Assembly: GCA_021766785.1 (NCBI GenBank)
Contig: JAICBP010000080.1
Span: 52,076-116,075, forward strand
Origin: Sulfurimonas sp. endosymbiont of Alviniconcha boucheti
Lineage (GTDB): Bacteria; Campylobacterota; Campylobacteria; Campylobacterales; Sulfurimonadaceae
DNA length: 64,000 nucleotides
Reading direction: 5' to 3'
Each line of letters begins with the position of its first letter. Within the stretch, counting starts at the first letter, position 1. The translations under genes and the position numbers were made by a program. Of the stretch, positions 415 through 61,974 are shown piece after piece. The notes beneath the pieces were generated by a model, which was not told where the DNA came from, searched no databases, and saw nothing but the letters and a program-made list of their open reading frames with translations.

Positions 415-1112
415 TGCAGATACCACAACTTCACAAATTTTCACTTGATTTTCCTCATCCTACTGAGGCTAATGAGGAGGGTATAGTCGCTTGGGGAGGA
501 GATCTTAACCCTTCAAGACTTCTTAAAGCCTATAGGAATGGTATCTTTCCATGGAATCAAAAAGAGGAACACTTACTCTGGTGGTCACCAGATCCTAGAC
601 TTATACTAGAACTCAAAGATTTCAAACTTCAAAGATCTCTAAAAAAAAGAATTAAACATTTTAATTTTAAATTTGATACAGACTTTCGTGGCGTTTTAGA
701 GAGATGTGCTTCTACTCATAGAAAGGGACAAAGTGGCACATGGCTATATGAAGATCTCATCGAATCTTTTGAAGTACTTCATGGTATGGGCATAGCTCAC
801 TCCATAGAGGCTTACCAAGATAACAAACTTGTAGGTGGACTCTATGGACTTAGTATAGGTGGTCTCTTTTGTGGAGAATCTATGTTTACCCATGTAAATG
901 ATGCTTCTAAAGCTGCATTTGCTGTACTGATAGAACATTTAAAAGTATGGAATTATGACTTTATTGACTGTCAAGTACCAACAGAACATCTAAAAAGTTT
1001 AGGAGCTAAGGAAGTACATAGAGAGTACTATTTAATGCGACTAGAGAGTGTTCGTAATGATGAAAAAGAGGAACTTTGGCAGGTTAATAATACTTTAGTT
1101 GCAAGTATGTAA
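414..1112 (+). CDS. aat: Leucyl/phenylalanyl-tRNA-protein transferase
   Basis: 232 residues, normal length for Aat. Family blocks are visible: WGGDLNPSRLLKAYRNGIFPW near residues 27-47, WWSPDPR just after, GTWLYEDL near 108, GGLYGLSIGGLFCGESMF in the middle, and FIDCQVPTEHLKSLGA near the end. The enzyme adds Leu or Phe from aminoacyl-tRNA to the N terminus of proteins that begin with basic residues, creating an N-degron for ClpS/ClpAP. It directly follows clpA with a one-base overlap, which places tagging enzyme and unfoldase in one operon. One exact TGGCGTTT octamer lies inside it at 689-696. Confidence 0.96.
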   Translation: MQIPQLHKFSLDFPHPTEANEEGIVAWGGDLNPSRLLKAYRNGIFPWNQKEEHLLWWSPDPRLILELKDFKLQRSLKKRIKHFNFKFDTDFRGVLERCASTHRKGQSGTWLYEDLIESFEVLHGMGIAHSIEAYQDNKLVGGLYGLSIGGLFCGESMFTHVNDASKAAFAVLIEHLKVWNYDFIDCQVPTEHLKSLGAKEVHREYYLMRLESVRNDEKEELWQVNNTLVASM

Positions 1113-1194
1113 AAAATATGACACAGTGCAATAAAATTCTATATTAATATTTAAGAGGGTATAGTTTCAACAAATAAAAAAAAAGATTGTAATT

Positions 1195-2193
1195 ATGGCG
1201 AAAAAAAAGAGACAAAAAAAAATAAAAAGTAGTTCAAAAGTACTTACATATACGGCATGGATTTTAACAGTTATAGCACTTACATTAAGTACAATACTTG
1301 CTGGATACTACATTGGTTATAACAGTGCTAAAGAAGAGCTCTCACAACAGATAAAGATCAAAAAATCAAAAGAGATAAAAGAGCCAGAAAAGAAAAAGGA
1401 GAATGTAAAGGGACGACTTAAAAATATTCTTAAAAAAGAGCTACACAAACAGGCTCCAAAAGTGTATATATCTGCAGCACATGAATTAGATGAAGGAGTA
1501 CTAGCTCCGCTCCCCAAGATACAAAAGCATAAAAGAAAACTCACGACCTCAAAACCAAAACTTGCTATCATTATAGATGATGTAGGCACAAGGTCTCAAG
1601 TAGATGCCATCAAAAGTTTGCACTTAACGCTTACTATGTCTTTTTTACCACCAAGTGCAGGACGACCAAATACTCCAAAACTTGCAGCAAAAGAACCTTT
1701 TTATATGGTTCACCTTCCTATGGAAGCTATGCACTGGAGTGCAGAAGAGCCAAATACACTCCATATTCATGACTCTCAAAAAATTATCTCTAAACGAATA
1801 GTTACCATTAAAAAACTCTTTCCTAAGGTTCACTATATCAACAACCATACAGGCAGTAAGTTTACAGCAGATGAGAGAGCGATGGATAGACTCATCTTTG
1901 CTTTAAAGAAAAATAATATTAACTTTATAGATAGTAGAACCACAGCCAAAACAAAAGTACCTAATGCTCTCAAAAAATTTGGACTTCAATATCTTTCAAG
2001 AGATATTTTTTTAGACCATCATATGGATAAAGCCTATGTTTTAAAGCAGATTAAACATGCGATAAAAATTGCTAAATCCCATGGAAATGCTATAGCAATA
2101 GGACATCCCCACAAAAACACACTTCAAGCACTTTATGAGTCAAAAGAACTTCTCAAAGAGGTTGACTTAGTCCTTATAAATAAAATAAGATAA
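1195..2193 (+). CDS. Divergent polysaccharide deacetylase family protein (YibQ/DUF610-like)
   Basis: 332 residues. A very basic N terminus precedes one membrane segment (about residues 17-40) and a charged Lys/Glu-rich linker (about 45-120). The catalytic-like domain shows IIDDVG (126-131), VHLPMEA (172-178), NNHTGSKFT (216-224), IDSRT (245-249) and GHPHKNT (303-309), the set seen in the divergent deacetylase family. The protein is probably anchored in the inner membrane with its domain in the periplasm, acting on an envelope glycan; the substrate is unknown. The Shine-Dalgarno upstream of the ATG is poor. It sits 5 bases before dprA and may be co-transcribed with it. Confidence 0.85.
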   Translation: MAKKKRQKKIKSSSKVLTYTAWILTVIALTLSTILAGYYIGYNSAKEELSQQIKIKKSKEIKEPEKKKENVKGRLKNILKKELHKQAPKVYISAAHELDEGVLAPLPKIQKHKRKLTTSKPKLAIIIDDVGTRSQVDAIKSLHLTLTMSFLPPSAGRPNTPKLAAKEPFYMVHLPMEAMHWSAEEPNTLHIHDSQKIISKRIVTIKKLFPKVHYINNHTGSKFTADERAMDRLIFALKKNNINFIDSRTTAKTKVPNALKKFGLQYLSRDIFLDHHMDKAYVLKQIKHAIKIAKSHGNAIAIGHPHKNTLQALYESKELLKEVDLVLINKIR

Positions 2194-2198
2194 CCCAT

Positions 2199-3042: not shown

Positions 3043-3049
3043 ATACTAC

Positions 3050-3104
3050 ATCCGAGGGGGAAACAAACGCCATTTAGGCAGATACCAAAAGGAGATCATA
3101 CTAT
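3050..3104 (+). promoter_or_regulatory. rpsF leader, possible S6:S18 autoregulatory RNA element
   Basis: The short leader holds a CCGAGGGGG block (3052-3060), a small GCC/GGC hairpin (3069-3071 with 3077-3079) and the ribosome binding site GGAG (3091-3094). In many bacteria the S6:S18 complex binds a leader element with a bulged CCG that mimics its 16S site and represses this operon. A CCG block in exactly this place fits, but I could not fold it to the full consensus. An AAACGCCA octamer (3065-3072) overlaps the hairpin. Confidence 0.4.
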
Positions 3105-3557
3105 ATGAGAAACTACGAAAACTTAGTAATCGTAAAACCTACATTAACAGCAGAAGAGATCCAAGCTAGCATTAAAGCTATCGAAGAGATCATCACTTCA
3201 AATGGTGGCGAAATCGCTGCAACAAGTCCAATGGGAATGAGAAAATTAGCGTACCCAATTGAAAAAAATGAGCGTGGCTACTACCATGTTATCTATTCAT
3301 CAATTGCTCCATCTGCAATTTCTGAAATCGAAAGACGTTTCCGTATTAATGAAGATTTACTTCGTTTTGTAACTATTAAATACGATACAAATCGTGAAAA
3401 AGTTGCATTCAACAACATGGTTGAAAAAGCTAAAAAATTAGCTGAAGAACCAAAAGATCAAACGCCAGTGACTGAAACGCCAGTAGCAGAAGCACCAACT
3501 CAAACGCCAACAGTAGAAACAGAAGATCCAGTAGCTACTGAAACAGCATCTGAGTAG
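3105..3557 (+). CDS. rpsF: 30S ribosomal protein S6
   Basis: 150 residues. The first ~105 form the S6 fold (MRNYENLVIVKPTL start, KLAYPIEKNERGYYHVIYS, IERRFRINEDLLRFVTIKYD). The rest is a disordered acidic Thr/Pro/Glu tail with TETPV, TQTPT and similar units. S6 binds 16S rRNA with S18 in the platform of the small subunit. GGAG lies ten bases before the ATG. It heads the conserved rpsF-ssb-rpsR operon. Three AAACGCCA octamers fall within 50 bases in the tail, each encoding a Thr-Pro. Confidence 0.98.
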   Translation: MRNYENLVIVKPTLTAEEIQASIKAIEEIITSNGGEIAATSPMGMRKLAYPIEKNERGYYHVIYSSIAPSAISEIERRFRINEDLLRFVTIKYDTNREKVAFNNMVEKAKKLAEEPKDQTPVTETPVAEAPTQTPTVETEDPVATETASE

Positions 3558-4169: not shown

Positions 4170-4433
4170 ATGGCAGAAAAAAGAAAATATAAAAAAAGAT
4201 ATTGTAAGTATTGTGAAGCAAAAGTGGACTTCATTGATTATAAAGATGCAAAAGCATTACGTTTCTCTCTTTCAGAAAGATATAAGATCATGCCTCGTCG
4301 TTTAACAGGTAACTGTAAACGCCACCAAGATATGATCTCTGTAGTTATTAAAAGAGCTCGTGCCGCAGCACTAGTTCCTTATACTGTAACTCGTAAAGCA
4401 GTTGTAACTGCACCATTTGAGAACCTGAGATAA
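4170..4433 (+). CDS. rpsR: 30S ribosomal protein S18
   Basis: 87 residues with [18 protein letters not shown] near the N terminus and the conserved block [19 protein letters not shown] in the middle, both diagnostic for S18. The two cysteines of CKYC are present. S18 pairs with S6 on the 30S platform. It is the last gene of the operon, 26 bases after ssb, with AAAAGGAAA before the start. An AAACGCCA octamer is at 4317-4324. Confidence 0.98.
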
Positions 4434-5748: not shown

Positions 5749-6059
5749 TAATTTTGTGATATTTCTCTAAACTCAAGTCGTGTTTTATCCTGTTTAAGTT
5801 TTTTATATAACTTAAATTTTGCTTTTTGAAGCTGTTCATCATCATAAGAAAAATCAGCTTTTAATTTTTCATCTCCAACATTTGCAGTCTCCATAGCGAA
5901 AAGTTTTAACTCTTTTTTTGTAAGCTTTGATTTTAAAACGCCATAAAGTAGTTTATCATCTTTTATTAGCTCTAATATCTCTAAAGCACAAAACTCTGCT
6001 AATTTCTCTCTAAAACTATTCTCTTTGTGGTACTGACGCCATACTGTAGATTCTAACAT
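5745..6059 (-). CDS. Hypothetical protein, small, charged and helical
   Basis: 104 residues, rich in Lys, Glu and Leu, predicted mostly helical, with no signal peptide, membrane segment or metal motif. I do not recognise a family. It starts inside the serB stop (TAATG, one-base overlap), so it is translationally coupled to serB and is probably a real gene. The distal end overlaps the convergent propeller gene by four bases. Confidence 0.7.
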   Translation of the reverse strand: MLESTVWRQYHKENSFREKLAEFCALEILELIKDDKLLYGVLKSKLTKKELKLFAMETANVGDEKLKADFSYDDEQLQKAKFKLYKKLKQDKTRLEFREISQNY

Positions 6060-6685
6060 TATAGTTGTTCCAATATTTTTGTTAAATTTTTCTCTTTGAT
6101 AATGATATTTGCTTCTTTTTCCAAAATCTCATGAGCACAAAACGCCACACGAGTTCGAGCATAAGCAAACATACTCAAATCATTTGCTCCATCACCACAT
6201 ACCAAAGTCTCTTCTTTATCTATATTTAGTATATTTTGTAAACGTACTAACATATCACCCTTTGAGTGAGAAAACATCATATCACCACCCACTAAACCTG
6301 TCAACTTGCCATCTTTTTCATGTAAAACATTTGAGAAGTCTGCATCGTAGCCTAAAATATCTTTTGCATATCCTGTAGCAGTTCTAAAACCACCACTAAA
6401 GCATACTACTCTCAAGCCTTTTTCCTTGAGTGCTGCTATAGTCTCCTTTGCACCTTTCATATAAGGAAGATTCTCACTTATCCTCTTTACTACAGAGGAC
6501 TCAAGTCCTTTTAATAGTGCGCTACGCTGTTGTAGAGACTCAAAAAAATCAACTCTTCCACTCATCGCCTCTTTAGTAATAGCAGCGACCTTATCCCCTA
6601 TTCCTAACTCTTTTGCAAAAAAATCTATAGTCTCTCCATCCATTAATGTAGAATCGAAATCAAAAACAGCTAATTTTAAACTCAT
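6059..6685 (-). CDS. serB: Phosphoserine phosphatase
   Basis: 208 residues, a HAD-superfamily hydrolase. Motif I is DFDSTLMDGETID (about 8-20), motif II lies in CFSGGF (about 95-100), and motif III/IV is CGDGANDLSM (about 163-172). It removes the phosphate from O-phosphoserine, the last step of serine synthesis. Unlike longer SerB proteins it has no N-terminal ACT domain. It is divergent from metF, and serA, the first enzyme of the pathway, is at 40596. An AAACGCCA octamer lies at 6140-6147. Confidence 0.95.
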   Translation of the reverse strand: MSLKLAVFDFDSTLMDGETIDFFAKELGIGDKVAAITKEAMSGRVDFFESLQQRSALLKGLESSVVKRISENLPYMKGAKETIAALKEKGLRVVCFSGGFRTATGYAKDILGYDADFSNVLHEKDGKLTGLVGGDMMFSHSKGDMLVRLQNILNIDKEETLVCGDGANDLSMFAYARTRVAFCAHEILEKEANIIIKEKNLTKILEQL

Positions 6686-7664: not shown

Positions 7665-8918
7665 ATGATTGATTTAAAACTATTACAGAAAGATTTTGAG
7701 GGTGTAAGTGCTAAGCTTATTCGTAAAGGTGTAAGCAGTGAGCTTTTAGCAACACTCAAGGAGAAATTTGAAGCACTTAAATTTGCAAAGCAGGAGTTTG
7801 AAACTCTTCAAGCTGCACAAAATGCGATGAGTAAGGAGTTTGGCGTTTATAAACGTGAAGGCAAAGATATATCTGAACTAAAAGCAAGAGTAGATGCAAA
7901 CAAACTCAAGGTAGCAGAAGCAGCAGATATACAACGCAAACGCCAAGAGGAGCTAGAGATAATAGCGATGGCAGTACCAAATATGCCAGATGAGAGTGTA
8001 CCAGATGGTAAAGATGAAGAGGATAATATAGAACTTAGAAAAGTACTTACTCCTAAAAAGTTTCATTTCACTCCAAAAGAGCATTGGGAGTTAGCAGAGA
8101 AAAATGGCTGGATAGACTTTGAACGTGGTGTAAAACTAGCTACATCAAGATTTTCAGTAAGTTTTGGAATGGGTGCAAGAATAGAGCGAGCATTGATAAA
8201 CTTCATGCTTGATTTTAATCGTAAGAGAGGCTTTGAAGAGGTAAGTGTTCCAGCACTCGTAAACCGTCAAGCACTAGAGGGAACTGGACAACTTCCAAAG
8301 TTTGAAGATGATCTTTATAAGATGGATGGAGAGGATCTTTTTCTTATTCCTACTGCTGAAGTACCAGTGACAAATCTTTATCAAGATGAAATACTCTCTG
8401 CTGATGATCTCCCAAAGAGAATGACAGCATACACCTCATGTTTTAGAAAAGAAGCAGGGGCCGCTGGTCGTGACACACGAGGCATGATACGCCAACACCA
8501 GTTTCACAAAGTCGAACTTGTAGCCATAACAACCCCAGATACAAGCGAAATCATATTTGAGCAGATGGTAAATTGTGCATCAGATATATTAACAGCACTA
8601 GAGCTTCCTCATAGAGTAGTAAACCTCTGTACAGGAGACTTAGGTTTTGGTGCAGCTTACACAACAGATATCGAAGTGTGGCTACCAGGACAGAATAAAT
8701 ACCGTGAAATCTCTTCTATAAGTAACACAAGAGACTTCCAAGCAAGACGCGCAAAAATCCGTTATAAAAATGGAAAGAAAAATGAGTTTGTAAATACTCT
8801 TAACGGATCTTCACTAGCCGTTGGTCGTACACTTGTAGCTATTATGGAAAATAATCAAAATGAGGATGGAACTATTGATATTCCTGAAGTGCTAAAGCCT
8901 TATTTAAATATAGTTTAA
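7665..8918 (+). CDS. serS: Serine-tRNA ligase
   Basis: 417 residues, normal for SerRS. The N-terminal ~110 residues form the tRNA-binding coiled-coil arm. The class II core shows the [13 protein letters not shown] block, motif 2 [21 protein letters not shown], and motif 3 [20 protein letters not shown]. It charges tRNA-Ser (and tRNA-Sec where present). It follows metF by 15 bases with AAAGGGAAA before the ATG. Two inverted TGGCGTTT octamers are at 7841 and 7938. Confidence 0.98.
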
Positions 8919-15350: not shown

Positions 15351-16571
15351 ATGCAAATTATTACACCTCACTACATCTATTTTAAAGACAGAGTTAGTAC
15401 CAACCTCTCTATCGCATTTGAAAAAACCATACAAAAAATTGCTCCTTTTGATGAGCTAATAAAGCTCTACCCTGATGCAGAGGTAACTACGCTTAAAGAG
15501 AATTCACTACTTATGCCAGGGCTTATAAATGCACATGTTCATATAGAGTTTTCAGGAAATAAAACATCACTTAGCTACGGTGACTTTATGAAGTGGCTTC
15601 ATAGTGTTATAGAGAATCGTGAAGATCTTTTACGTGGCTGTTCACAAGAGTGTATGGATAAAGCAATAAACTCCATGTTAGAAAATGGAATCACAACATT
15701 CGGAGCGATCAGTTCCAATGCTATGGATCTACAAGCATGTGCAAACGCCAAACAAAATGTTCTCTTTTTTAATGAACTTATAGGCACTCAAGCTATGATG
15801 GCAGATACACTTTTTGCAGACTTTATTTCACGTTTAGAGGCTTCTAAGTCAATCAAACGCCAAGGATTTACTCCTGCAGTGGCTATTCACTCCCCTTACT
15901 CTGTACATCCTATACTCATTCAAAAAGCTATAGAGATAGTAAAAAATGAAAAGTTACCTCTTACTGCACACTTTATGGAGTCCCAAGCAGAACGTGACTG
16001 GCTAGATAAGAGTGATGGAGATTTTAAAAGTTTTTTCAATACACTCTTCAAACAAAATACAAATGTAAGTGACTCTCATGAATTTTTAGCAAACTTTTAT
16101 GAAGTACCTACACTTATGACCCACTGTGTCCAAGCGAACAATGCAGAATTAAACACAATAGCAAAAGCAAAACATACACTTATTCATTGCCCTATTTCTA
16201 ACCGTTTGCTAGGAAATCCAACACTCAACATTAAAAAATTAGATGAGAAAAATATACGCTGGATTGTGGCTACTGATGGTCTAAGTTCTAACTACAAACT
16301 TGATTTATTTGAGGAGATGAAGATCTCTCTGTTTAACCATCCATCAATGCCACTTCTCAGCTTTGCAAAAGCACTCATTGATAGTGTTACCATTCATGCA
16401 GCAGAAGCCCTAGGAATTAATACAGGAGAGATAAAAGAGGGCAAAAATGCAGATATGTTAATTCTTGACTTAGAGAAAGAACCAAATGAAGAGTTAGCCA
16501 TTCATTTAATACTACATCGCTATAATATCTCTAAAGTTTACATAAATGGCAAACTAGAAAAGGAAAACTAA
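15351..16571 (+). CDS. mqnX: Amidohydrolase, probable aminodeoxyfutalosine deaminase (menaquinone synthesis)
   Basis: 406 residues, amidohydrolase superfamily. Metal ligands: HVH (62-64) in NAHVHIEF; a His in TAHFMESQAERDWL; THCVQ with HCPISNR after it; and the Asp in VATDGLSSN. An amidohydrolase of this group from the epsilonproteobacterium Nitratiruptor has been shown to deaminate 6-aminodeoxyfutalosine. The same slot after aroQ and before sppA holds the homologue in C. jejuni. With ubiE and the UbiD-like gene here, this fits the futalosine route. The general amidohydrolase call is certain; the substrate rests on family and context. Confidence 0.8.
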   Translation: MQIITPHYIYFKDRVSTNLSIAFEKTIQKIAPFDELIKLYPDAEVTTLKENSLLMPGLINAHVHIEFSGNKTSLSYGDFMKWLHSVIENREDLLRGCSQECMDKAINSMLENGITTFGAISSNAMDLQACANAKQNVLFFNELIGTQAMMADTLFADFISRLEASKSIKRQGFTPAVAIHSPYSVHPILIQKAIEIVKNEKLPLTAHFMESQAERDWLDKSDGDFKSFFNTLFKQNTNVSDSHEFLANFYEVPTLMTHCVQANNAELNTIAKAKHTLIHCPISNRLLGNPTLNIKKLDEKNIRWIVATDGLSSNYKLDLFEEMKISLFNHPSMPLLSFAKALIDSVTIHAAEALGINTGEIKEGKNADMLILDLEKEPNEELAIHLILHRYNISKVYINGKLEKEN

Positions 16572-18049: not shown

Positions 18050-19233
18050 AAAATATTTTCCTTTGTTAGAACTTTTGCTTTAAGTCTTATAGTAGTGCTC
18101 TGTACTTCAAATTCATCTCCAACATTTAGAGAGTGAATATCTACTACCTGTGCATTTTGTGAAAGCTGAGCAAAGCCCTTTTTATCTTTAAATTTTGGAT
18201 TATTAGATTCTACTATTTTTTGTAGATTTATAAGTTGATTTTGAGCAAGATTTAACCGATACTCTACTGCTTGAGTGAAACTCGCTTTGAGCTGTTTTAT
18301 CTCCTCCTCTCTTTGTAGTACTTTTTTCTTTACAGAGTGTTGTATAAAAGAATTTTTAAGGTGCAAAATCTCTTGAGATCTTGTGTAGATCTTCTGCTCA
18401 AATACTTGACTCATTTGCAAAGAGAGTGAGTCTATATACTGGTAGAGTTCATTTGTATCTGGAAGTGCTATCTCCATAGCAGCACTAGGAGTTGCTGCTC
18501 TTACATCAGCTACAAAGTCACTAATTACCCAATCTATCTCATGACCAACAGCAGAAATAATGGGAGTTTTTGCATGAAAGATGGCGTTTGCCACACTCTC
18601 CTCATTAAAAGCCCATAAATCTTCTATACTACCACCACCACGACCAACAACTAAAATATCATACTCCTTTGTGTCGGCAACTATTATGGCGTTTACAATA
18701 GCATGTGAAGCACTTGCTCCTTGAACTAAAACATCATATACATCAATCTCTAAGTTTTTGTATCGACTATTTGCCACTCTTAGCATATCTTGTAGAGCCG
18801 CTCCAGTTGATGAAGTGATAAGAGCTATACGAGAGGGAAACTTCGGAAGTTGTTTTTTTATCTCAGAATTGAAGTAACCCTTAGTTGAGAGTTTTTCTTT
18901 GAGCTGTTCAAAAGCAAGTGCCAATGCACCCTTCCCTGATGGTTCAATACTAAAACAGTTTAACTGATAAGAGCCACGAGGTTTATAAAGTGTTAGAGCT
19001 GCATTGATAATAACCTTCATCCCCTCTTCAAGATGAAACTTTAACTTTGAAGCATTTCCACGAAACATTACTGCACTAATAACAGAAGAGCTATCTTTTA
19101 GTGTAAAGTAGATATGTCCAGAATTGTGAAAAGTTATACGAGAGAGCTCTCCCTCGACTAAGACTTGGTTGAAGCTAGTCTCAAGCAGACCCTTTATCTG
19201 TTCATTTAGTCCTGAGACTGAGAGTGTGTACAT
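18046..19233 (-). CDS. xseA: Exodeoxyribonuclease VII large subunit
   Basis: 395 residues. An OB-fold N-terminal domain (LLETSFNQVLVEGELSRITFHNSGHIYFTLKD in parts) is followed by the catalytic region with ALITSSTGAALQDML, DILVVGRGGGSIEDLWAFNEE and ISAVGHEIDWVISDFVADVRAATPSAAME, then a coiled-coil C terminus. The enzyme degrades single-stranded DNA to oligonucleotides. The small subunit XseB is not in the window. Two same-direction TGGCGTTT octamers lie at 18582 and 18687. Confidence 0.96.
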   Translation of the reverse strand: MYTLSVSGLNEQIKGLLETSFNQVLVEGELSRITFHNSGHIYFTLKDSSSVISAVMFRGNASKLKFHLEEGMKVIINAALTLYKPRGSYQLNCFSIEPSGKGALALAFEQLKEKLSTKGYFNSEIKKQLPKFPSRIALITSSTGAALQDMLRVANSRYKNLEIDVYDVLVQGASASHAIVNAIIVADTKEYDILVVGRGGGSIEDLWAFNEESVANAIFHAKTPIISAVGHEIDWVISDFVADVRAATPSAAMEIALPDTNELYQYIDSLSLQMSQVFEQKIYTRSQEILHLKNSFIQHSVKKKVLQREEEIKQLKASFTQAVEYRLNLAQNQLINLQKIVESNNPKFKDKKGFAQLSQNAQVVDIHSLNVGDEFEVQSTTIRLKAKVLTKENIL

Positions 19234-19992: not shown

Positions 19993-21023
19993 CTTTTCTC
20001 TATCCTTTTCATCCACATAATTATATCTTGATCTACTTGTCTTGTATTTAAAATCTTGAACTTCTCTTTTCCACTTCCAATACTTTTATTTCCTGCAAAA
20101 CTAGGTACCAAATAGCAGAGATAATAATCCACAATATCACGAGTCAAAACAAACATAGACTCTGTACCCTCTATCATGATATTTTTATACTGCTTGAGCC
20201 TCTCAAAACCACTCTCTATAAATACTTTACGACCCTTTACATGAAAGAGAGGAATAGTTCTATCAAACTCCTCCTTACGAGAGAGTATCAAAACATCTGG
20301 TGCCTTTCCCCCTACTAAACGCGAATTAAGTGTTGGTCTATCTTCTCTAACTGTATTTCCACCGATCACAAGGAGATCACAAACATCACGCATTGCATGA
20401 AGATTAGTTCTTGACACTTTTGAACTAATATTTCCATTATCGATAGTTGCATTTAAACGCTGCGCCCACTTAAAAAATATAAACTGCTTTTTTTGCCATA
20501 AGTTAAAAGGTCTAAGTAGTGCATCACATTGATCTTTAAGTAGTTCACTATGGACAACACAATCATTTTTTTTCAAAATTTTATTGCCACAACTTGCTAT
20601 AGGGTTCACATCATAAGAGCCAATAAAAACCTCTTTTATACCAAGTTTGGTTATAAGCCAAGCACAAGATGGCGTTTTACCTGAGTGAGCACAAGGTTCT
20701 AGTGTTGCATAGAGTATTGCATCTATAAATATACCATTATGGTTAGCTAAAAGATAGGTGTGTATCTCACTTGAATCTTCAATCTCTAAGATAGAACTAT
20801 CTTGTGTAAGTTTATAATAAGCCTGCTGAAGAGCTTTTACCTCTGCATGAGGTGTACCAGCTTTATGGTGTGCCTCTACTGCTAAGATATCTCCATTCTT
20901 ACCAACTACTGTACAACCAACAGCTGGATTTGGGTAAGTAACACCTTGATATTTCCATGCCTCTTTCAGAGCAAGAGAGAGATAAAACTCATTATCAATT
21001 TGCATGGTAATGCTATCTACCAC
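19989..21023 (-). CDS. ribD: Riboflavin biosynthesis protein RibD (deaminase/reductase)
   Basis: 344 residues. The N-terminal deaminase domain has the zinc motif HAEVKAL and PCAHSGKTPSC, and PNPAVGCTVV near residue 32. The C-terminal reductase domain includes RLNATIDNGNISSKVSRTNLHAMRDVCDLLVIGGNTVREDRPTLNSR (cited in pieces). It makes 5-amino-6-ribitylamino-uracil phosphate from the deaminated pyrimidine. The reductase half is somewhat short. It overlaps rimP by seven bases. Confidence 0.92.
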   Translation of the reverse strand: MVDSITMQIDNEFYLSLALKEAWKYQGVTYPNPAVGCTVVGKNGDILAVEAHHKAGTPHAEVKALQQAYYKLTQDSSILEIEDSSEIHTYLLANHNGIFIDAILYATLEPCAHSGKTPSCAWLITKLGIKEVFIGSYDVNPIASCGNKILKKNDCVVHSELLKDQCDALLRPFNLWQKKQFIFFKWAQRLNATIDNGNISSKVSRTNLHAMRDVCDLLVIGGNTVREDRPTLNSRLVGGKAPDVLILSRKEEFDRTIPLFHVKGRKVFIESGFERLKQYKNIMIEGTESMFVLTRDIVDYYLCYLVPSFAGNKSIGSGKEKFKILNTRQVDQDIIMWMKRIEKR

Positions 21024-21466
21024 TCAAAGTAAGTTTTTGCTTTGATAACATCATTAAAATTTACTTTAACTGTTGCATCATCGCTCTCTATAAAAAGAGT
21101 AGATCCTTCAACTTTTGTTAAAACGCCACGAATTTTCTCTTTTCCCAAGTAGCGCAGTGCAACTCTCTCACCTATGCTTTTTTTAAAGTGTCCAATGTTC
21201 ACAAGTTTACGCTCAATCCCAGCAGTTCCAACCTCAAGTCTATACTCTCCAGAGACTGGAGGTGCTACATCTAACAGTGGAGAGATCATATGTGTAAGTT
21301 CTACACAAGTATCAAGAGTAACACTCTGGCGTTTACCATCTTCTATCTCAGTAGAGATAATACTTACACGGTAAATAGTCTCTTCGTGTTCACTAACTAT
21401 AACGGCATCATAAAGTTCTAAGCCAACTGATTTTACTATTGACTCTATATCGTTTTGTAGGCTCAT
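21017..21466 (-). CDS. rimP: Ribosome maturation factor RimP
   Basis: 149 residues. The RimP pattern is present: VGLELYDAVIVSEHEETIYRVSI, CVELTHMISPLLDV, GEYRLEVGTAGIERKL and GERVALRYLG. It helps 30S assembly. It overlaps rbfA by four bases and forms the infB-rbfA-rimP block common in the phylum. Two opposed TGGCGTTT octamers are at 21121 and 21327. Confidence 0.94.
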   Translation of the reverse strand: MSLQNDIESIVKSVGLELYDAVIVSEHEETIYRVSIISTEIEDGKRQSVTLDTCVELTHMISPLLDVAPPVSGEYRLEVGTAGIERKLVNIGHFKKSIGERVALRYLGKEKIRGVLTKVEGSTLFIESDDATVKVNFNDVIKAKTYFEW

Positions 21467-21941: not shown

Positions 21942-24605
21942 CTATAGGCTTACTTTTTGCTCAACTTTTTTGAAAGTTTCAAGAACATCACCAGGCTGTA
22001 CATCATCATAACCACTGATAACAACACCACACTCATAACCATTTCCAATCTCTTCAACATCATCTTTGAAACGTTTAAGTGAAGTAAGTTCACCTTCGTA
22101 ATGAACAACACCCTCTCGAATAACACGAACCATCCCACCACGGATAAGACGACCATCAACAACAACAGATCCAGCAACAACACCTTTAGGTATCTTAAAC
22201 ACTTCTCGAACTTCTGCTTGACCAGTATTCTCTTCAGTATATTTTGGTGCCATCATTCCTGTAAGCATACCAGTAATATCATCTATGAGCTGATAAATAA
22301 TAGAGTAAGTTTTAATTGCAACACCTTTTTGTTTTGCACTCGCTTTAACTGCACCAGTAGGTCGAATATTAAATCCAAGAAGTACACAATTTTCAGAGTT
22401 GTTTACAAGCTCTACATCATTTTCAGTAATACCACCAACACCGCTAGAGATAATATTTACTTTTACTTCATCATTACGCAACTCAAGGATAGAACTTCTG
22501 ATCGCTTCAAGAGTACCGTGAACATCTGTTTTTAGTACTACTTTAAGAGATTTAAGTTTTCCTTCAGCGATCATAGCTGTCATATCTTCAAGTGAGGATT
22601 TTGTTGAGACTGAAAGTTCTTTATGTCTATCATATTCATGGCGTTTAAGTGCATACTCTTTTGCCTCTTTATCTGTTGACATAACCATCATAATCTCACC
22701 TGATGCTGGAACTTCATTAAGTCCTGCAATAACTGCGGTATGAGATGGTAAAAGAGTTTTCACCTGTTTCTTATGCTCATCCATCATAGCTTTAACACGA
22801 CCGTAAGCAGCGCCACAAACAACATAATCTCCAACTTTTAGAGTACCATTTTGAACAATAACAGTAGCAACTGGACCACGACCTTTTTCTAATGAGGACT
22901 CTATAACAGCAGCTTTAGCCATTGCCTCAGTATTTGCTTTTAGCTCAAGTATCTCGGCAGTTGTAAGAATATTTTCTAATAAATTATCAATACCATCACC
23001 AGATTTTGCAGAGACTGGAATAAACTCAATATCCCCACCCCAATCAACAGGATTTATCCCATGTTCAGCCATCTGACCTTTTACCATATCTGGTTGTGCA
23101 GTCTCTTTATCCATTTTATTTAAAGCAACGATAATTGGAGCACCAGACTCTTTTGCAAGTTTTATAACTTCTAAAGTTTGTGGTTTTACACCATCATCAG
23201 CGGCAACAACAATTACAACAATATCGGTAATCTCAGTACCTTTTTCACGCATATGAGTAAATGCAGCGTGACCAGGAGTATCTATAAAAGTAATAGGTTT
23301 CCCATGTTGTTCAATCGTATATGCACCTATGTGTTGGGTAATTCCACCAGCTTCACCATCAGTCACTTTTGCCTTACGGATAGCATCAAGAAGTGAAGTT
23401 TTACCATGATCGACATGTCCCATTATTGTAATAACAGGAGCTCTCTCTGTAGCATTTGGATCTACTTCTATATCTTCTACCTCAACTGTAAACTCATCTT
23501 TAGGATCAATAATAGTTACTTCTACACCAAACTCTTCAGAAAGAATTTCAATCTCATCGTTACCAAGGAAATCATTCTTTGTCATCATCATACCAAGATC
23601 AAAAAGAACTTTAATAATCTCAGACATAGGTCGCTTAAGAGCATCTGCAAACTCATAAACACGAATATCTTCTGGAATCTCTACATGCGTAACAACCTCT
23701 TCTCCTTGATTTGCTTTTGTATATTTTTTACGTTTATCTTTACGTACTTTACGACCACGAGGAGCTTGCTTTTTATTTCCATTTCGTCCAACTGGTTTTG
23801 GAGGGCGAGGTTTACGCTGCTCTTCTGCTGGAAGTGGTGCTCTCTCTGTTGAGTTCAGATCAAGAAGTACTACTTGATTATCCATATCCATAGAGACTTC
23901 AGCCATAGAGTCACCAAAGATATCTATACGTTTACCTTGATCTTGTTTTTTAGCAGTTGCCGTAGAAGTTTTTTTAGTCTTCTTCTGTGCAAGTTCAGCA
24001 AGAGCTTCTGCACTCATTTTTCCATATGAAGATACAGAAGCTTGTTTTTTTGGAAGATTATAACTCTCTTCTATTTTTGGCTTTTTCTTTTTAACAATTT
24101 TAAGACCTCTCTTTTGCAATCCTGATCTTACAGTAGGGGTTACCACTCTTAGAGTCGATTTTGGCTTTGTTGCTTCAGGTGCAACTTCATCTTTCTTCTC
24201 TACTACAGGCTCTTCTACTTTTGGAGTTTTTGGTACTTCTACCTCTTCTGGAGTTTTTGCTACCTTTACTTTTGGAGTAGCTACCTCTTTTACATCCTTT
24301 ACCTCAACAACAGGAACTTCTATAGTTTCAGTTGCAGTTGCTTCTGGAGTATCAGAAGTTGTCTCTACTGTTACTTCTTTTGGAGTTTCAGTTTTAGCTT
24401 TTTTAACGACTTTTGGTTTCTTTGGAGCTGACTTTTCATCTTCACCATTCATTATGAAGTTTACTATGCCATCTGCTTGTTCCATAGTGACCTTGCTATG
24501 TGCTGCTTTTACTTCTATACCCATACTCTTTGCTTTTTCTAAAACATCTTTTGAAGTAATTCCTAGCTCGTCTGCAATCTCTTTAATACTAACTTTATCT
24601 GTCAT
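21942..24605 (-). CDS. infB: Translation initiation factor IF-2
   Basis: 887 residues. Residues 1-60 hold the IF2 N-terminal helix bundle ([23 protein letters not shown]), then a long repetitive Lys/Glu/Val/Pro linker (about 60-310). The GTPase has [12 protein letters not shown] (G1), DTPGHAAF (G3) and NKMDK (G4), followed by domains II-IV. IF-2 places initiator tRNA on the 30S. A GC-richer linker is typical of the phylum. The start overlaps the ylxR-like gene by eleven bases. Confidence 0.98.
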
Positions 24606-34483: not shown

Positions 34484-35104
34484 TCATATCTTCTCTATCT
34501 GAGTAATAATTTTTTGCATACCTTCAAAGAGAAGTCTCTTATTTACTGCAACACTCTTAAAGAGTTTTGCAAAATCCTCAGCATCACCACCAGTGAGAAT
34601 AATAGGAAGATTATAAGAGAGAATCTCACTTGCCAAAAGTTTTAGATAACCATAGCTAATAGCATCTTGAGAGTTTGTTGCTAGTTTTTGTTGATCGAGT
34701 TCAAAATGAAAGGGGTATCTTAATGCAGGAGAGATCTCACTGTAGCACTTTTGCATTGCCCTTTTGCCAGGAGAGATAAATCCTCCCTCATAAACGCCAT
34801 CACGAACAATGTCAACTGTTAGAGCACTTCCTGCATCTATGATAACACCATGAGATATCGCTTCAACAGCACAGATCCTATCTATACCCATTGTTTCATA
34901 ATAGTTCTCTCTTTGAATAAAAGGCTCTACATCAATCCAGTTATCCAAATCTTCAAGTTTTTTTGAGAGTGTTTTATTTACTGAGATATAGTACACTTTT
35001 TCTAAAAGTGTACTTGGATTAAACGCCACTACTTGTCTCTTATATTCTCCTCTTTTATCATCAAGAAAATGTAAAAAAGTATTCCCAATATCACACAAAA
35101 GCAT
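34484..35104 (-). CDS. coaX: Type III pantothenate kinase
   Basis: 206 residues from the chosen start MLLCDIGNT. ASKHA-fold motifs: DIGNT at the N terminus (ATP), GIDR in the middle, and GVIIDAGSALTVDIVRDGVYEGGFISPG (quoted as DAGSALTVD and GGFISPG). It phosphorylates pantothenate, the first step of CoA synthesis, with potassium or ammonium. The ATG at 35104 overlaps the upstream stop by one base (TAATG). An ATG five codons earlier is also in frame. Two AAACGCCA octamers lie at 34792 and 35021. Confidence 0.93.
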   Translation of the reverse strand: MLLCDIGNTFLHFLDDKRGEYKRQVVAFNPSTLLEKVYYISVNKTLSKKLEDLDNWIDVEPFIQRENYYETMGIDRICAVEAISHGVIIDAGSALTVDIVRDGVYEGGFISPGKRAMQKCYSEISPALRYPFHFELDQQKLATNSQDAISYGYLKLLASEILSYNLPIILTGGDAEDFAKLFKSVAVNKRLLFEGMQKIITQIEKI

Positions 35105-42679: not shown

Positions 42680-44335
42680 TTACTTAAATTTATCTTTGAT
42701 TAAATCACCTAAAGAGTGCGATTCATTGTCATTAATCTCTTCTAGTATAGCTTGATTTTTAACGTATTCTAATTTTTTAACAGAGAGACGAACACGATCA
42801 CGATTAGTATCGATATTTGCTATTGCAGCTTCTATTGTCTGTCCAATCTCTAACTCCTCTTTTACAAGTGGTGTTAAATCTTCTTCACGAATAAGTGCGT
42901 CAATACCATTTTCTAAAGAGACAAATACACCGAACTCTTTAATATCTCGAACAGTAGCAGTAACAACAGAGTTCACCTTATGATTTGTAGCGAACTTATC
43001 AATAGGAGACTCTAAAAGAGTTTTTCTATTAAAAGATATCTTTTGATCTAGAGCATGAATCTTTACAATTTTTACTTCTACTTCTTCACCAGACTTAAAA
43101 AATTCCTTTGCTTTTGTATTCTTCTCCCAAGAAATATCTTGATTATGGAGAAGACCTTCCACACCAGCAACACGAACAAATGCACCAAAGTCAGTAAGCG
43201 AAGTGATAACACCAGTTACAATATCACCTTCATAGTAATTATCTAAGAATGCCTCAAATGGTTTTGGTAAAAGTCGCTTAAGTGAAACACGAAGCTTATG
43301 TGTACTAGAATTAATTTCAATAACTTCAACATCAATCTCTTCACCAACAGTTAAATAGTGCTCAGCTTTTTTAACATTTCTATCCCAAGATATCTCAGAG
43401 ACATGCAAGAAACCTTCAATACCATTTCCTAAGTCAATAAATACACCATAATTTTCAATTCTTGAAACAGTAACAGTGATAGTATCACCTTCATCTAGAT
43501 CAGACTCAACCTCAGCCCATGGATTAGGAAGAACAGCTTTAATAGAAAGGGCCAAATGGTGTTTATCTTTATCATAGGAGACTGCTTTTACATTTACTTC
43601 ATCACCCAAATTATAATATTTTAATGGATTTACTGGACCTTTGTGAGAGATTTCATTATAGTGAACTAAACCATTAACACCACCAACATCAACAAATACA
43701 CCATATGTAGTGATCTTACTAACGATACCAGTAACAACAACATCTTCTGCCATGAGTTGATCAATAATCTCTCTTTTCTTTTTACGCTCTTCATTAAATA
43801 GTTTTCTACGAGAAATAACTATCGAGTTCTCTGCCTCATTGATTTTAATAATTAGAGCTTTGATTTTGCGACCAACTACATTATCACCCTCTTTAAATGC
43901 AGATAAAGAGCGTGGCATAAAGAATGAAACGCCATCAGAGTCAACCTCATAACCACCACGATTTTTCTTAGTTATAACACCTTCAACGATGATATTTTCA
44001 AAATCTTCTTTATGTGCATCAATAAATGCAATACTTTTCTCATGCTCTAAGGCTTTTTTATAAGAAATTTTTGGACGTTCATTAAAGTAACCCATTTGCA
44101 TTACTTTAATCTTATCGCCTATAGTGAACTTTAGATTACCATTTTCATCACGGATTTCATCAAGGTTTAAAATACCCTCTAATTTATCACTTATACTAAC
44201 TAGTACTCTATTGTCTTCCATTTGGATTTCAACTATTTCACCCTCTATAATGCGAGTGTTCTTTTGTCTGTTTTCGCTCTCTGCAAACATTTCTGCAAAG
44301 TTTTCTTCATCTAATAATTCGTTATCCAACGCCAT
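42680..44335 (-). CDS. rpsA: 30S ribosomal protein S1
   Basis: 551 residues with six S1-type OB repeats; each shows a GxVxxITxxGxFVxxxGxxGLxHxSEISW pattern, for example VVTGIVSKITTYGVFVDVGGVNGLVHYNEIS and VSRIENYGVFIDLGNGIEGFLHVSEISW (in parts). The protein binds mRNA on the small subunit. Total length matches six-domain S1. An AAACGCCA octamer lies at 43928. A strong -10 is 33 bases upstream, so it is expressed separately as well as with ispH. Confidence 0.97.
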   Translation of the reverse strand: MALDNELLDEENFAEMFAESENRQKNTRIIEGEIVEIQMEDNRVLVSISDKLEGILNLDEIRDENGNLKFTIGDKIKVMQMGYFNERPKISYKKALEHEKSIAFIDAHKEDFENIIVEGVITKKNRGGYEVDSDGVSFFMPRSLSAFKEGDNVVGRKIKALIIKINEAENSIVISRRKLFNEERKKKREIIDQLMAEDVVVTGIVSKITTYGVFVDVGGVNGLVHYNEISHKGPVNPLKYYNLGDEVNVKAVSYDKDKHHLALSIKAVLPNPWAEVESDLDEGDTITVTVSRIENYGVFIDLGNGIEGFLHVSEISWDRNVKKAEHYLTVGEEIDVEVIEINSSTHKLRVSLKRLLPKPFEAFLDNYYEGDIVTGVITSLTDFGAFVRVAGVEGLLHNQDISWEKNTKAKEFFKSGEEVEVKIVKIHALDQKISFNRKTLLESPIDKFATNHKVNSVVTATVRDIKEFGVFVSLENGIDALIREEDLTPLVKEELEIGQTIEAAIANIDTNRDRVRLSVKKLEYVKNQAILEEINDNESHSLGDLIKDKFK

Positions 44336-46637: not shown

Positions 46638-48967
46638 TATCTAAGACCTATGCCTAACTCTGAAGAGAGAGATGCAAGTATGCTATCCATGGCAGATATA
46701 ATATCTTTCTCTTCTAAAGTTTTATCTATCGATTGAAGAACAAAACGGATAGTTAAACTCATATTATCATTGAGAGTTTCATCTATATACTTATCTACTG
46801 GATAAAAACGAACAAGATTGTTTATATTTGCACTCACAATGACTTCTTTTACTTTCTCATAACTCATATCTTGTGGCATTACAAGGCTTAAGTCTTTAAA
46901 TGATGCTTGATACTTAGAAGTTTTTTTTGCAATTTTGAGTCCACAACTGATCTTGGAAAAATCCAATTCACACATAAAAGTAATAGGTAAATCATACTCT
47001 TTTTCTACATTTGGATGGACACGAAAAAGCTCTCCAATATTTTCACCATTTTGCACTACAACAGCTGACTGAAAGTTGTGAGAGAGAGTGTGAGTTGTTC
47101 TCTTCTCACGAAGCTCTACTGAACCTATAACATCAGAGATCTTCTGTACAAAATAAGCAAAATCAACACTCATCGGTTTTCCAGCATTTACAATACTTTC
47201 ATTCTCCTTCTCACCACTAAACACAAACGCCATACTGTATGACTCCTCACGAGAGGGTGTAAATACAGAACCTATTTCAAAAATTCGTACAGAAGAGTAG
47301 CCATTCTTTACATTATTAGATACAGATTTAAGCAATCCTGTTAATAGTGTAGGTCTTAAGGTATCAAGAGTCTGCACAATTGGATTAAGTAACTCTAACT
47401 CTTCTTTTATGGTTACAAAGCCATAAGAGTTAAGTACTTTCTTCTCATCAAATACAAAATGAACAGTTTCATAAAAGCCACTTTGAGCCGCACGTTTTCT
47501 AAGAGAAGAACGTTTTTTATACTCAAAATAGTTATCTTCTAAACGATTAGCTTCAGTCAAAACAAAAGGTTTAGAAGGGATATTGTTAATCCCCACCATA
47601 CGAACAATCTCTTCAACTATATCTTGCTTATTAACAATATCATGACGAAACTGTGGCACAGAAATAACAAACTTGTTTAAAGAGGATTTCGATATATTAA
47701 AGCCAAGATTTTTCAAAATTTTGACAACTATCGCCTTATCAATCTTTGCACCAATTATTTCATCAATCTCTTGCTTCGTAATAATTACAATCTTCTCAGT
47801 ATAGGAGTTTAAGAGTTCTACTCTACCACTGTATGTAGTCGAGGATGAGTTTGCTTCAAGAAGATCAATACAGTATGCAAGTCCAGCTTCAAGAGCAGGC
47901 TCACTTCCACGTGAAGTTTTATAAAACATTGGGCCAGTTTCTATTTTTGACTCTAGTATCTTTTTGCTAATAATATCAGGTGGGATATAAGATGCTTCTA
48001 AGAGCATAACTCCTTCACTGTTTTGCATTTTAGAGTTATCATTTTGCATAATTCCAACTATCGATGCACTCCTTGATCCTTTTATACATGCACAAGCATT
48101 TTCATCTTCTTCAAGAGTAACTTTTGCTATTTTTTCATCATCATTTACAAAAAAATCATGCCTATATGCACGAAGAATAACACCTGTACTTTGTGTCACA
48201 TAAAGAAGCATAGCTTCTACTGCACGTTCACAATTTTCCCCTATCTGAGCTAATCTTAATTTTACTAATGTAGGCACTTTTAGTGCTTTAAGATCAAGTG
48301 CTTTATAATTAAGATTTACATAAAGGGACTTTTCATAAGAGAGAGATAAAATACGTCCAATCCCACGTTTATCATCATTATCTGTTACAATATACTCTTT
48401 TAATGGTCTATCAAAAGCGGCAGATAAATCACGTGCAACACCACGAATACTGAGGCAATCACCACGATTTGCAGTAAGTTCTATCTCAATGAGGTCATCA
48501 TTAAAAAAGGGGTTATTGCTCACTGCATCACCAAGTTTACACTCTCCCATACTTGCATCTATTTCTAAAATACCTTTGCCTATATCTACAAGACCAAGTT
48601 CACTTGCAGCACAAATCATTCCATCAGAATCAACACCACGAAGTTTTACAGGCTTAATAAGAAGACCATTAGGCATCTGTGCACCTAAAGTTGCAACAGC
48701 AACAGTAAGTCCAACACGAACATTCGATGCCCCACATACTATCTGGCGGATGGAAGATCCAATATCTACTTGACATACATTAAGCTTATCTGCATTTGGA
48801 TGTTTTTCACACTCAAGAATCTTACCAAAAATAATCTTACTAGGTACTCTATACTCGACTAGACGGTCAACTTCTAAGCCAATACTATTAAATGTTTTTA
48901 CAATCTCTGCTGTAGATATATCACTAAGGTTTATCCACTCTTCTAACCAGGATCTTGTTATTATCAT
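46637..48967 (-). CDS. pheT: Phenylalanine-tRNA ligase beta subunit
   Basis: 776 residues. An N-terminal tRNA-binding OB domain ([26 protein letters not shown]-like stretch) is followed by the B3/B4 editing region ([21 protein letters not shown]) and the class II-like core, ending with the ferredoxin-fold anticodon domain. It pairs with PheS to charge tRNA-Phe. It overlaps pheS by four bases. An AAACGCCA octamer is at 47225. Confidence 0.97.
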
Positions 48968-58848: not shown

Positions 58849-59736
58849 TTAATAACTTCTCTGTATCATAGTATCTAAAATAAGAAGAAGTGAAGGATCT
58901 TCACTCATTCTATTTTTTGCCTCTGTTGAGAGCTTTTTCGCTAGCATAAAAGATTTCTCAATTACCCCAAACTCTTTCATCTTTGCTTCTATCCAGGCAC
59001 TCTCTTTTTTAGAAATATGTTGCGCATGAGCAGCGACTAAACGTACTCTATCTTCTCCATCTAATGCTTCATAAAGATAGATATATGGTAGAGTGCATTT
59101 CCCTTCTACATAATCATTCATGGCTGGTTTACCAAGTTTTTCTTCTGTGGAAGTAATATCTAAAATATCATCAATAATTTGAAAAGAGATTCCAAGATTT
59201 CTTCCATAAAGAGCATAAGATTCGGCATCTTTTCCAACAAGTAGTGCTGCTGATTTTGTTGCCGATTCTATGAGGGTAGCTGTCTTAAGGTATAGCATAT
59301 CAAGATAGAGTTTCTCATCTGAGTTAAAGGACTCTGACATCTTCACATCCATCATCTCACCTTTTGAGAGTGCTACAACAGAAGATGCGATGGTCTCTGC
59401 TATACTTCTATCAAACGCCACTAATTCGGTAAATGCCTTTGAATAAAGAATATCTCCAAGCATAACAGCAATTTTACTTCCCTCTGTGGCGTTTACCGAC
59501 TCTACACCACGACGAGTCATCGACTCATCTATAATATCATCATGAAGAAGACTTGCTGCATGAATAAGTTCTACTATAGCAGCTAGTAGTGGTGCGTCTT
59601 TATGCTGATCTGCTATCTTTAGTATAAGCTTTGCACGAAGGCGTTTGCCACCACTAAGCTTATTAAAAAGCTCTTTTACCTCTTCATAGTCACATTCGTT
59701 GATGAGTCTTTCTATTTCATTTTCAACTCTCTGCAT
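58849..59736 (-). CDS. Polyprenyl diphosphate synthase
   Basis: 295 residues. The first Asp-rich motif is LLHDDIIDESMTRRG (about 64-78), the second is QIIDDILDITS (about 186-196), and GGKRLRAKL is near 29. These features mark the trans-prenyl synthases that build the menaquinone side chain, most likely octaprenyl (IspB-like). The exact chain length cannot be read. It pairs with hemA downstream as in C. jejuni. Two inverted octamers, 59413 and 59487, lie 74 bases apart. Confidence 0.92.
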   Translation of the reverse strand: MQRVENEIERLINECDYEEVKELFNKLSGGKRLRAKLILKIADQHKDAPLLAAIVELIHAASLLHDDIIDESMTRRGVESVNATEGSKIAVMLGDILYSKAFTELVAFDRSIAETIASSVVALSKGEMMDVKMSESFNSDEKLYLDMLYLKTATLIESATKSAALLVGKDAESYALYGRNLGISFQIIDDILDITSTEEKLGKPAMNDYVEGKCTLPYIYLYEALDGEDRVRLVAAHAQHISKKESAWIEAKMKEFGVIEKSFMLAKKLSTEAKNRMSEDPSLLLILDTMIQRSY

Positions 59737-60167: not shown

Positions 60168-60174
60168 AATAAAA

Positions 60175-61026
60175 CTACTTCACTATTTCAGTTCCCACAC
60201 CCTCAGATGTGAAAAGTTCTAAAAGCATAGAGTGTTCAAGACGACCATCTATTATATGAGCTTTTGCCACACCACCATTGATAGCTTCAAGACAAGCATC
60301 CACCTTGGGTACCATTCCACCATAAATAGTTCCATCTGCTTTGAATGCTTCAACTTGAGTAGATGTCAAACTTGAAAAAAGCTCTTTTTCACTGTTGAGT
60401 ACACCTTCTGTATCTGTGAGAAAAATAATTTTATTTGCACCAATTGCCTTTGCAACATAAGAAGCACATAAATCAGCATTTATGTTAAAACCAGGGTGTC
60501 CCATCTCACTTCCAGCAGCAATAGGAGCTATAACAGGAATAAAACCTTCACCAATAAGATTACAAATCACATCTGCTTTCACATCTGTAATATTTCCAGT
60601 TAGCCCCCATTTAGTGAACTCTTTTGCTTTAGCTGTAATGAAGTGTGCATCTTTTCCACTCATACCAATAGCCTTTGCAGAGTGTGAATTTAGCAGTGAA
60701 ACAATCTCTTTATTTATCTCTCCACTCAGTATCATCTCTGCTATACGCATCACCTCTTTTGTAGTAACACGCTGTCCCTCTATAAACTTTGTTTCTATAC
60801 TTAATGCATCAAGCATATCGGTGATCTTTTTCCCACCACCATGAATGATAACTGGCTTAATACCTACAAGATACATCAGTAGAATATCCTCAGCAAACTT
60901 CTCTTTTAACTGGGGGGAAGTTTGTGCCGAACCACCATACTTTATCACTACAATCTCTTTGCGAAACTCTTTTATAAAAGGGAGCGCATCAAGGAGAGTT
61001 TTCACTGTTTCTATCTTTGTTTGCAA
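60175..61026 (-). CDS. argB: Acetylglutamate kinase
   Basis: 283 residues. The amino acid kinase motifs are VIKYGGSAQT near 27, VIIHGGGKKITDML near 60, GFNINADLCASYVAKAIGA, and LTDTEGVL. It phosphorylates N-acetylglutamate in arginine synthesis. The start is TTG with AGGAAAG close upstream; an ATG in another frame just before is not usable. It sits next to lpxK. Confidence 0.97.
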   Translation of the reverse strand: MQTKIETVKTLLDALPFIKEFRKEIVVIKYGGSAQTSPQLKEKFAEDILLMYLVGIKPVIIHGGGKKITDMLDALSIETKFIEGQRVTTKEVMRIAEMILSGEINKEIVSLLNSHSAKAIGMSGKDAHFITAKAKEFTKWGLTGNITDVKADVICNLIGEGFIPVIAPIAAGSEMGHPGFNINADLCASYVAKAIGANKIIFLTDTEGVLNSEKELFSSLTSTQVEAFKADGTIYGGMVPKVDACLEAINGGVAKAHIIDGRLEHSMLLELFTSEGVGTEIVK

Positions 61027-61080
61027 TGTCTTTCCTGCATAGTTCTATTATCTGTTTTTGCTATTTTATCTAAAACTCTA

Positions 61081-61974
61081 TTATGAATTTATAAAGTCCA
61101 ATAGTGAAGCATTAACTTCTACATCCAGATCAAGTAAAGAGAGAGGAATACCAAAGCTCTGTATCTTTACAAAATCCTTATAAGTCACAAGTAGTGAATC
61201 TGCATCTTCTTTTTCTATAATCTCTAAAAGTTCCTCTTTGTTGAAACTATAGTGATCATGAAAATAGTATTTTGCTATCACCATAGGTAAAAAAGCATCA
61301 AGGCGTTCTGGTCTTGCAATAGCCGTAACTAGTACCATTTTCTTTGTAGAATTTTTAAGTGTCACATGGCGTTTAAAGTCCACATCTTCATAAATCACTC
61401 GTCTATTGGTACTCTTCCAAAGTCTCTCACGAAAAGGACCAGAAGGAAGACAAGCAGAGTTTTTTGATTCTACATTGATGATAATATCTCTCTTTTTGAT
61501 CTTATGCTTTGAGTAGGCATCATCTAAGAAAATCTGTTTCGCACCCATCTCTTTTGCTTTTTCTATGCCCTCTTCTCTATCTTCACTGACTATAACGATG
61601 GCGTTTGGAACTTTCTCTGCATAGATCATCGCTTCATCACCACTTATTTGAACATCAACTAAAATCTTTTCTCTATTTTTTACGACATAAAGTCCATGAG
61701 ATTTTCGACCATAACCGCGAAGGATAATAGCTACATCCTCATACTCTTTTGCTAATGCTGTGACTAATGGTGTTTTACCACTACCTCCAACATTAAGATT
61801 GCCCACACTTATAATATCTATACCGAAATCTTTCTCTTTTTGTAGTTGAAATCGCACATACATCCCAAAACAATAGAGCCAAGAGAGTGGAAGAAGAAGT
61901 ATTGATAACAATTTTTGAAAAGTGCTTGGGTTGTAAAAATATTTCTCAACCCAAAAAGTCACTTCTTTTTTCAT
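61081..61974 (-). CDS. lpxK: Tetraacyldisaccharide 4'-kinase
   Basis: 297 residues. A membrane segment lies near 24-42. The P-loop is SVGNLNVGGSGKTPLV (about 55-70), with ILRGYGRKSHG next and SVGNDSEAMI-like SGDEAMIYAEKV after, then FLDDAYSKHKIKKRDIIIN with the second motif. LpxK adds the 4'-phosphate to lipid A at the inner membrane. Two octamers at 61367 and 61599 share one direction. It follows the DegT-type gene by two bases. Confidence 0.93.
   Translation of the reverse strand: MKKEVTFWVEKYFYNPSTFQKLLSILLLPLSWLYCFGMYVRFQLQKEKDFGIDIISVGNLNVGGSGKTPLVTALAKEYEDVAIILRGYGRKSHGLYVVKNREKILVDVQISGDEAMIYAEKVPNAIVIVSEDREEGIEKAKEMGAKQIFLDDAYSKHKIKKRDIIINVESKNSACLPSGPFRERLWKSTNRRVIYEDVDFKRHVTLKNSTKKMVLVTAIARPERLDAFLPMVIAKYYFHDHYSFNKEELLEIIEKEDADSLLVTYKDFVKIQSFGIPLSLLDLDVEVNASLLDFINS

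Follow-up and report, generated by a model that had tools for sequence, protein, structure and literature searches.

A recurrent octamer in a Sulfurimonas endosymbiont is probably one dialect of a family of DNA uptake sequences in the genus

The 64,000-nucleotide stretch analysed here (the window; contig JAICBP010000080.1, positions 52,076 to 116,075, from the Sulfurimonas sp. endosymbiont of Alviniconcha boucheti) carries many copies of one octamer, TGGCGTTT, which an earlier note on its sequence had put forward as a possible DNA uptake sequence. We found 30 exact copies in the window, 13 on the plus strand and 17 on the minus strand; the earlier count of 29 (13 plus, 16 minus) was right for the plus strand and one short for the minus strand and the total. 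The plus-strand copies lie at 689-696, 7841-7848, 18582-18589, 18687-18694, 20670-20677, 21327-21334, 22639-22646 (inside infB, encoding IF-2, assigned by TIGR00487), 32598-32605, 32699-32706, 33285-33292, 59487-59494, 61367-61374 and 61599-61606. On the minus strand, two copies are intergenic by open reading frame (ORF) calling (3065-3072 and 4317-4324), one is inside rpsA (43927-43934, gene by NCBIfam) and one inside pheT (47225-47232, gene by TIGR00472); others lie at 5936-5943, 6140-6147, 7938-7945, 15743-15750, 15855-15862, 21121-21128, 34002-34009, 34792-34799, 35021-35028 and 59413-59420. The last three, at 3460-3467, 3475-3482 and 3502-3509, fall within 50 bp in the low-complexity C-terminal extension of an rpsF-like ORF (3105-3557), and because they share this one tail they are not independent.

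The abundance of the word far exceeds what base composition explains. Dinucleotide shuffles of the window contained a mean of 0.65 copies and at most 4, and TGGCGTTT was the top octamer of the window under a third-order Markov model (30 observed, 1.8 expected). The whole genome (2.24 Mb, 99.99% complete) holds 693 copies (331 plus, 362 minus), compared with 13 (5 plus, 8 minus) of the reversed word, which alone is a crude control; the enrichment is therefore not confined to the window. Beside these whole-genome counts, further figures for this genome come from a 665-kb unmasked sample of 38 stretches, for which the third-order model was trained with sites masked. There too TGGCGTTT was the top octamer, with 232 copies against 9.2 expected (about 25 times expectation, z = 73), and it was found in 33 of the 38 stretches at a density of 1 per 3.2 kb. 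Unrelated octamers of the same composition are not equally enriched: among 280 same-composition anagrams, TGGCGTTT with its 232 copies was followed by a runner-up with 72, and the median was 13.

Related words mark other members of the genus. We counted three words in all 135 Sulfurimonas genomes, with the source genome designated G000. Besides G000, TGGCGTTT is enriched in G406 (636 versus 24 reversed), G438 (389 versus 11), G489, G414, G497, G462, G484, G476 and others, about a dozen relatives, and most congeners are at background. De novo word searches in sampled stretches gave a second word, CTGCGTTT, as the top word of G336 and G212. It is enriched in about 30 genomes, with a maximum of 2,331 copies versus 83 for the control in G493, and is at background in G000 (23 versus 18). 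A third word, TGCGTGAG, surfaced de novo in G016, G404 and G063; it is enriched in these genomes and in G415, G420, G409 and G049 (621 to 962 copies versus 22 to 39), weakly in G441, and in no other of the 135 genomes. Samples of 25 to 40 kb suggested further dialects, namely TTGCGTGT in G439 (15 copies versus 0.7 expected) and YTGCATCA, with partial frame bias, in G399 and G413. Aligned in register, the words have GCRT as a common core and differ between lineages in their flanks. Several genomes (G406, G462, G489, G438 and others) contain many copies of two dialects at once, the TGG and CTG forms. Outside the genus, about 90 genomes sampled from 17 further genera of the family included none with a comparable enrichment of CTGCGTTT; in genus g6 its copies were about twice as many as those of the control. 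These clade-specific dialects go further than the earlier note, which had proposed a check of conservation in sister species. As a separate observation, G212 has a second word beside CTGCGTTT, CATGAGCG/GCTCATG, with 58 copies versus 4.3 in 133 kb and in many frames.

Could codon usage, repeated protein motifs or a dispersed repeat element produce such words? Codon-driven words do exist in these genomes, and they are nearly single-frame: 208 of 270 coding copies of CTTCATC (about 77%) and 33 of 34 of GATGAAG occupy one frame. TGGCGTTT behaves differently. In the sample, 210 of its 232 copies (about 90%) lie inside ORFs and use all six frames (gene strand 7/42/35, opposite strand 34/38/54), of which only the frame encoding Trp-Arg is rare, and the dialect words in general occupy four to six frames over both strands. 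The occurrence in every frame, and the exclusion of a codon or protein-motif cause that the earlier note drew from it, thus hold at this larger scale. Furthermore, the flanks of TGGCGTTT are unrelated apart from a purine at position +9, which speaks against a repeat element, and many congeners have background counts. A codon or repeat origin is refuted for TGGCGTTT and CTGCGTTT and may hold in part for TGCATCA, of which 40 of 66 copies in G399 share one frame; as a general explanation we give it practically no chance. GATGAAG, CTTCATC, TGAAGCG and TGAAGCGA, which rank highest in some congeners, were rejected as codon-driven and mostly single-frame. Separately, small genomes of 1.6 Mb, probably Helicobacter (family f14, genus g51), contain about 300 copies of TGGCGTTT versus about 60 reversed, an excess likely caused by codon usage.

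The word is also balanced between strands. With local GC skew as a proxy for replication direction, 95 copies were leading and 117 lagging, which is no bias, and two CTGCGTTT species gave 43/56 and 28/28. This balance bears on Chi, the hotspot word that directs recombination by the AddAB or RecBCD nuclease. Chi words have a similar length and density, and they are expected to turn over more slowly than the words of these sister species have done. Moreover, two words coexist in several genomes. The lack of a leading-strand preference and the fast turnover make a Chi function very improbable. Another kind of genome-wide recognition signal, such as one for a nucleoid or segregation protein, a KOPS-like (FtsK-orienting polar sequence) word or something further, seems improbable too, if slightly less so: word biology is little studied in Campylobacterota, KOPS-like signals are strongly polar and are disfavoured because TGGCGTTT is strand-balanced, and one would not expect a nucleoid or segregation signal to be lacking from so many congeners. 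The argument of the earlier note that balanced orientation speaks against Chi and KOPS therefore stands. Its claim that the word is independent of gene direction stands in part: both orientations occur, with a mild bias (84 copies in the same orientation as the gene, 126 opposite). Published uptake words likewise show a gene-orientation bias (van Passel, PMC2346458). Close pairs, which had been described as common, are in only slight excess; spacing is near random (13 gaps below 120 bp versus about 8 expected), so that such pairs carry little weight. A gene for a surface protein of 919 amino acids with OmpL47/LapB-type repeats also lies in the window, at 36088-38847.

We then placed the words on a phylogeny, a quick tree of one gene, proline-tRNA ligase, that covers part of the genus. 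CTGCGTTT occupies deep branches of the sampled part, TGGCGTTT appears in G000 with G462 and G489, in G406 with G465, and in G414, and the TGCGTGAG genomes in the tree form one group with a support of 94. Six changes explain the presence and absence of GCGTTT words. At positions aligned to G000 sites, word-bearing relatives kept GCGTTT in 37 of 86 cells, compared with 20% for control 6-mers and 17% for CpG-containing ones, a comparison that covers only 16 distinct G000 sites in relatives that are not independent of each other. Word-less congeners of similar identity (72 versus 75%) kept it in 3 of 99 cells, with controls at 15% and 11%. The versions that relatives carry at G000 sites are mostly TTGCGTTT (15), CTGCGTTT (8) and TGGCGTTT (6), an indication that dialects are altered at existing sites.

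The internal structure of the word was examined in the 665-kb sample through its one-mismatch variants. Change is tolerated mainly at the outer positions: CGGCGTTT occurs 43 times versus 2.4 expected, TGGCGTTC 35 versus 4.3 and TGGCGTTG 18 versus 5.4, and most inner variants are at or under expectation. One variant, TGGTGTTT, is under expectation at 31 versus 64. Of 122 copies, 98 have a purine at +9, hence the extended form TGGCGTTT(R); other flank signals are weak. For TGGCGTTT, perfect copies number 0.62 times the single-mismatch copies; for 279 anagrams this ratio has a median of 0.03 and reaches at most 0.13. The raw ratio of TGGCGTTT is below 1, unlike that of the 9-bp uptake signal sequence (USS). 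An excess of perfect copies has been called a puzzling attribute common to the USS and the DNA uptake sequence (DUS) (Redfield et al. 2006, PMC1626085).

The shape of the word brings in the main rival explanation, in which a lineage-specific DNA methyltransferase, together with either biased mismatch repair or repair of the Vsr kind, creates and maintains genome-wide a word that has no role in uptake, as for the highly iterated palindrome HIP1. HIP1 is likewise abundant, is replaced in some species and has its one-off variants at outer positions (PMC4390886), the pattern seen here in the excess of CGGCGTTT and TGGCGTTC and the shortage of TGGTGTTT, and a palindromic word, TACATGTA, is present in some congeners. 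However, such words are palindromic with palindromic methyltransferases, and TGGCGTTT, CTGCGTTT and TGCGTGAG lack this symmetry. From one dialect to the next, a few bases change on either side of the shared core, unlike what unrelated sites would show. In addition, the 5-methylcytosine motifs of S. denitrificans, CGCG, CCNGG, CCGG and GATC, do not match, as determined by a method that is poor on asymmetric sites and blind to N6-methyladenine (PMC8112702). On this balance we regard a HIP1-like origin as unlikely. TACATGTA itself is in strong excess in two lineages that lie far apart in the genus (G451, G443, G424 and G408) and occurs in several frames; in G424, a total of 43.8 kb has it at 17 distinct places versus about 1 expected. 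This palindrome may be linked to modification or resemble HIP1 instead of being an uptake word.

The distribution of TGGCGTTT along the genome is uneven. Counts per stretch are over-dispersed (p = 0.007), and in the genome sample, part of which is masked, three stretches, L023, L029 and L046, are site-free with Poisson p of 0.002-0.014. All three hold accessory genes. L023 encodes LPD38, a domain of polyvalent proteins that is characteristic of phages and mobile elements. L029, which has low GC, contains a gene for a non-ribosomal peptide synthetase of 1,441 amino acids with condensation, AMP-binding, carrier and thioesterase domains (L029:11443-15768, on contig C82), and L046, also of low GC, contains PLD, AAA_14 and astacin genes. 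Previous reports found that the uptake words of Haemophilus and Neisseria are scarce in newly acquired segments (PMC7811141) and that integrative and conjugative elements can be found via atypical DUS distribution (PMC7371117). A 37-kb site-free island in contig C73 was rejected since it is largely masked sequence.

The genus is equipped with genes for competence. ComEC was present in all 38 well-completed Sulfurimonas genomes sampled and PilT in all 79 genomes examined. In the window, dprA, which encodes the transformation-associated DNA-processing protein A, lies at 2199-2984 on the plus strand; it is a context gene and no part of the word system. The earlier note had named it in support of competence, and its family was confirmed by TIGR00732 (E 1.6e-49), with a score of 168 bits under the curated cut-off of 191. 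At C82:503-513 kb there is a cluster resembling a type II secretion system, which includes a GspE ATPase and pseudopilins. A member of this cluster (L224:608-1132, about 503 kb of C82) encodes a basic minor pilin of 174 amino acids, with a net charge of +21 (−3 to +17 in relatives), adjoining a GspE/CtsE-like ATPase (L224:1586-2908). This pilin recalls the C. jejuni competence protein Cj0683, described as pilin-like, positively charged and interacting with CtsE. Internal stops in the minor-pilin gene of G318 and G248 did not recur in the profile search, and these genes were not taken as pseudogenes.

Together, these data suggest that TGGCGTTT(R) is probably the DNA uptake sequence of this Sulfurimonas species and one dialect of a family within the genus. 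That family would comprise TGGCGTTT, CTGCGTTT and TGCGTGAG, and probably TTGCGTGT and YTGCATCA, all short and asymmetric words with the core GCRT. The words and their abundance were observed directly, and so were several things predicted of an uptake word: dialects that follow lineage, conservation of sites, three accessory stretches of the genome sample free of the word, and competence genes throughout the genus. From them we infer preferential uptake, a receptor and a drive. An outer-membrane receptor of the type IV pilus or competence apparatus would bind word-carrying fragments better, ComEC would import them, and DprA and RecA would recombine them. Since such fragments would be over-sampled and would replace word-less alleles, molecular drive would build up words in the core DNA that undergoes transformation, as in the published model of uptake bias and recombination (PMC7811141). 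The word would change when the specificity of the receptor changes. We also hold it fairly likely, with somewhat less assurance, that uptake sequences arose independently here, with the Campylobacterota as a third bacterial group. One genus would then contain no fewer than three dialects, and probably five or more, that evolve step by step, with two-dialect species as intermediates.

Several points weigh against an uptake role. The outer-position excess of one-off variants has also been described for HIP1 (PMC4390886), the conservation comparison covers few sites, and congeners with the same machinery, G318, G221 and G324, show no clear word. Intergenic copies of TGGCGTTT are slightly rarer than expected (22 versus 35), and no inverted terminator pairs of it were seen, unlike the Neisseria DUS. 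The basic minor pilin was rejected as a receptor like ComP: several word-bearing species (G016, G404, G420, G415, G409 and G461) lack a profile match, and it is therefore unlikely to be the specificity factor. We found no report of transformation in Sulfurimonas in the literature. The interpretation offered by the earlier note is supported, short of proved, and a HIP1-like origin keeps some probability.

Sequence-specific DNA uptake has been described from two families, the Pasteurellaceae and Neisseriaceae (PMC5031613). In the open-access literature we found no uptake sequence of Sulfurimonas or Campylobacterota, in agreement with the earlier note, which had said that none is well known in this phylum; subscription papers and preprints were outside the search and priority is not established. 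If the uptake interpretation is true, the words would form a third, unrelated case, and the many dialects in 135 genomes of one free-living genus would be a natural experiment that bears on the old question of uptake-biased drive versus selection for self-recognition and on the co-change of receptor and word. They would also offer a practical handle for laboratory transformation of Sulfurimonas.

Among known systems, the requirement for RAATTY in uptake by Campylobacter jejuni differs in that the mark is a methylated degenerate hexamer and not an over-represented word (PMC10046745). Cyanobacterial HIP1 is, like TGGCGTTT, a massively iterated octamer that is most variable at its outer positions and replaced in some lineages (PMC4390886), but it is palindromic and linked to matching methyltransferases. 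The Hin and Apl types of the Pasteurellaceae USS (PMC1626085) share with the Sulfurimonas words a similar core length, the excess of perfect copies, clade-specific types (two in USS) and a mild in-gene orientation bias. They differ in their unrelated sequence and their clear AT-rich flanking segments, of which none were seen here, and Sulfurimonas has more dialects within a single genus. The Neisseriaceae DUS also has an unrelated sequence and is longer (10-12 bp, versus 8-9 bp here); TGGCGTTT is mostly intragenic, with none of the inverted terminator pairs seen, and the ComP receptor and uptake are established for the DUS, whereas for the words described here a receptor and preferential uptake are proposed. 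Nevertheless, the two resemble each other in having hundreds to thousands of copies on both strands with a strong consensus, in lineage dialects around a conserved core, in the presence of two dialects at once and perhaps in depletion from foreign islands (Frye et al. 2013, PMC3630211).

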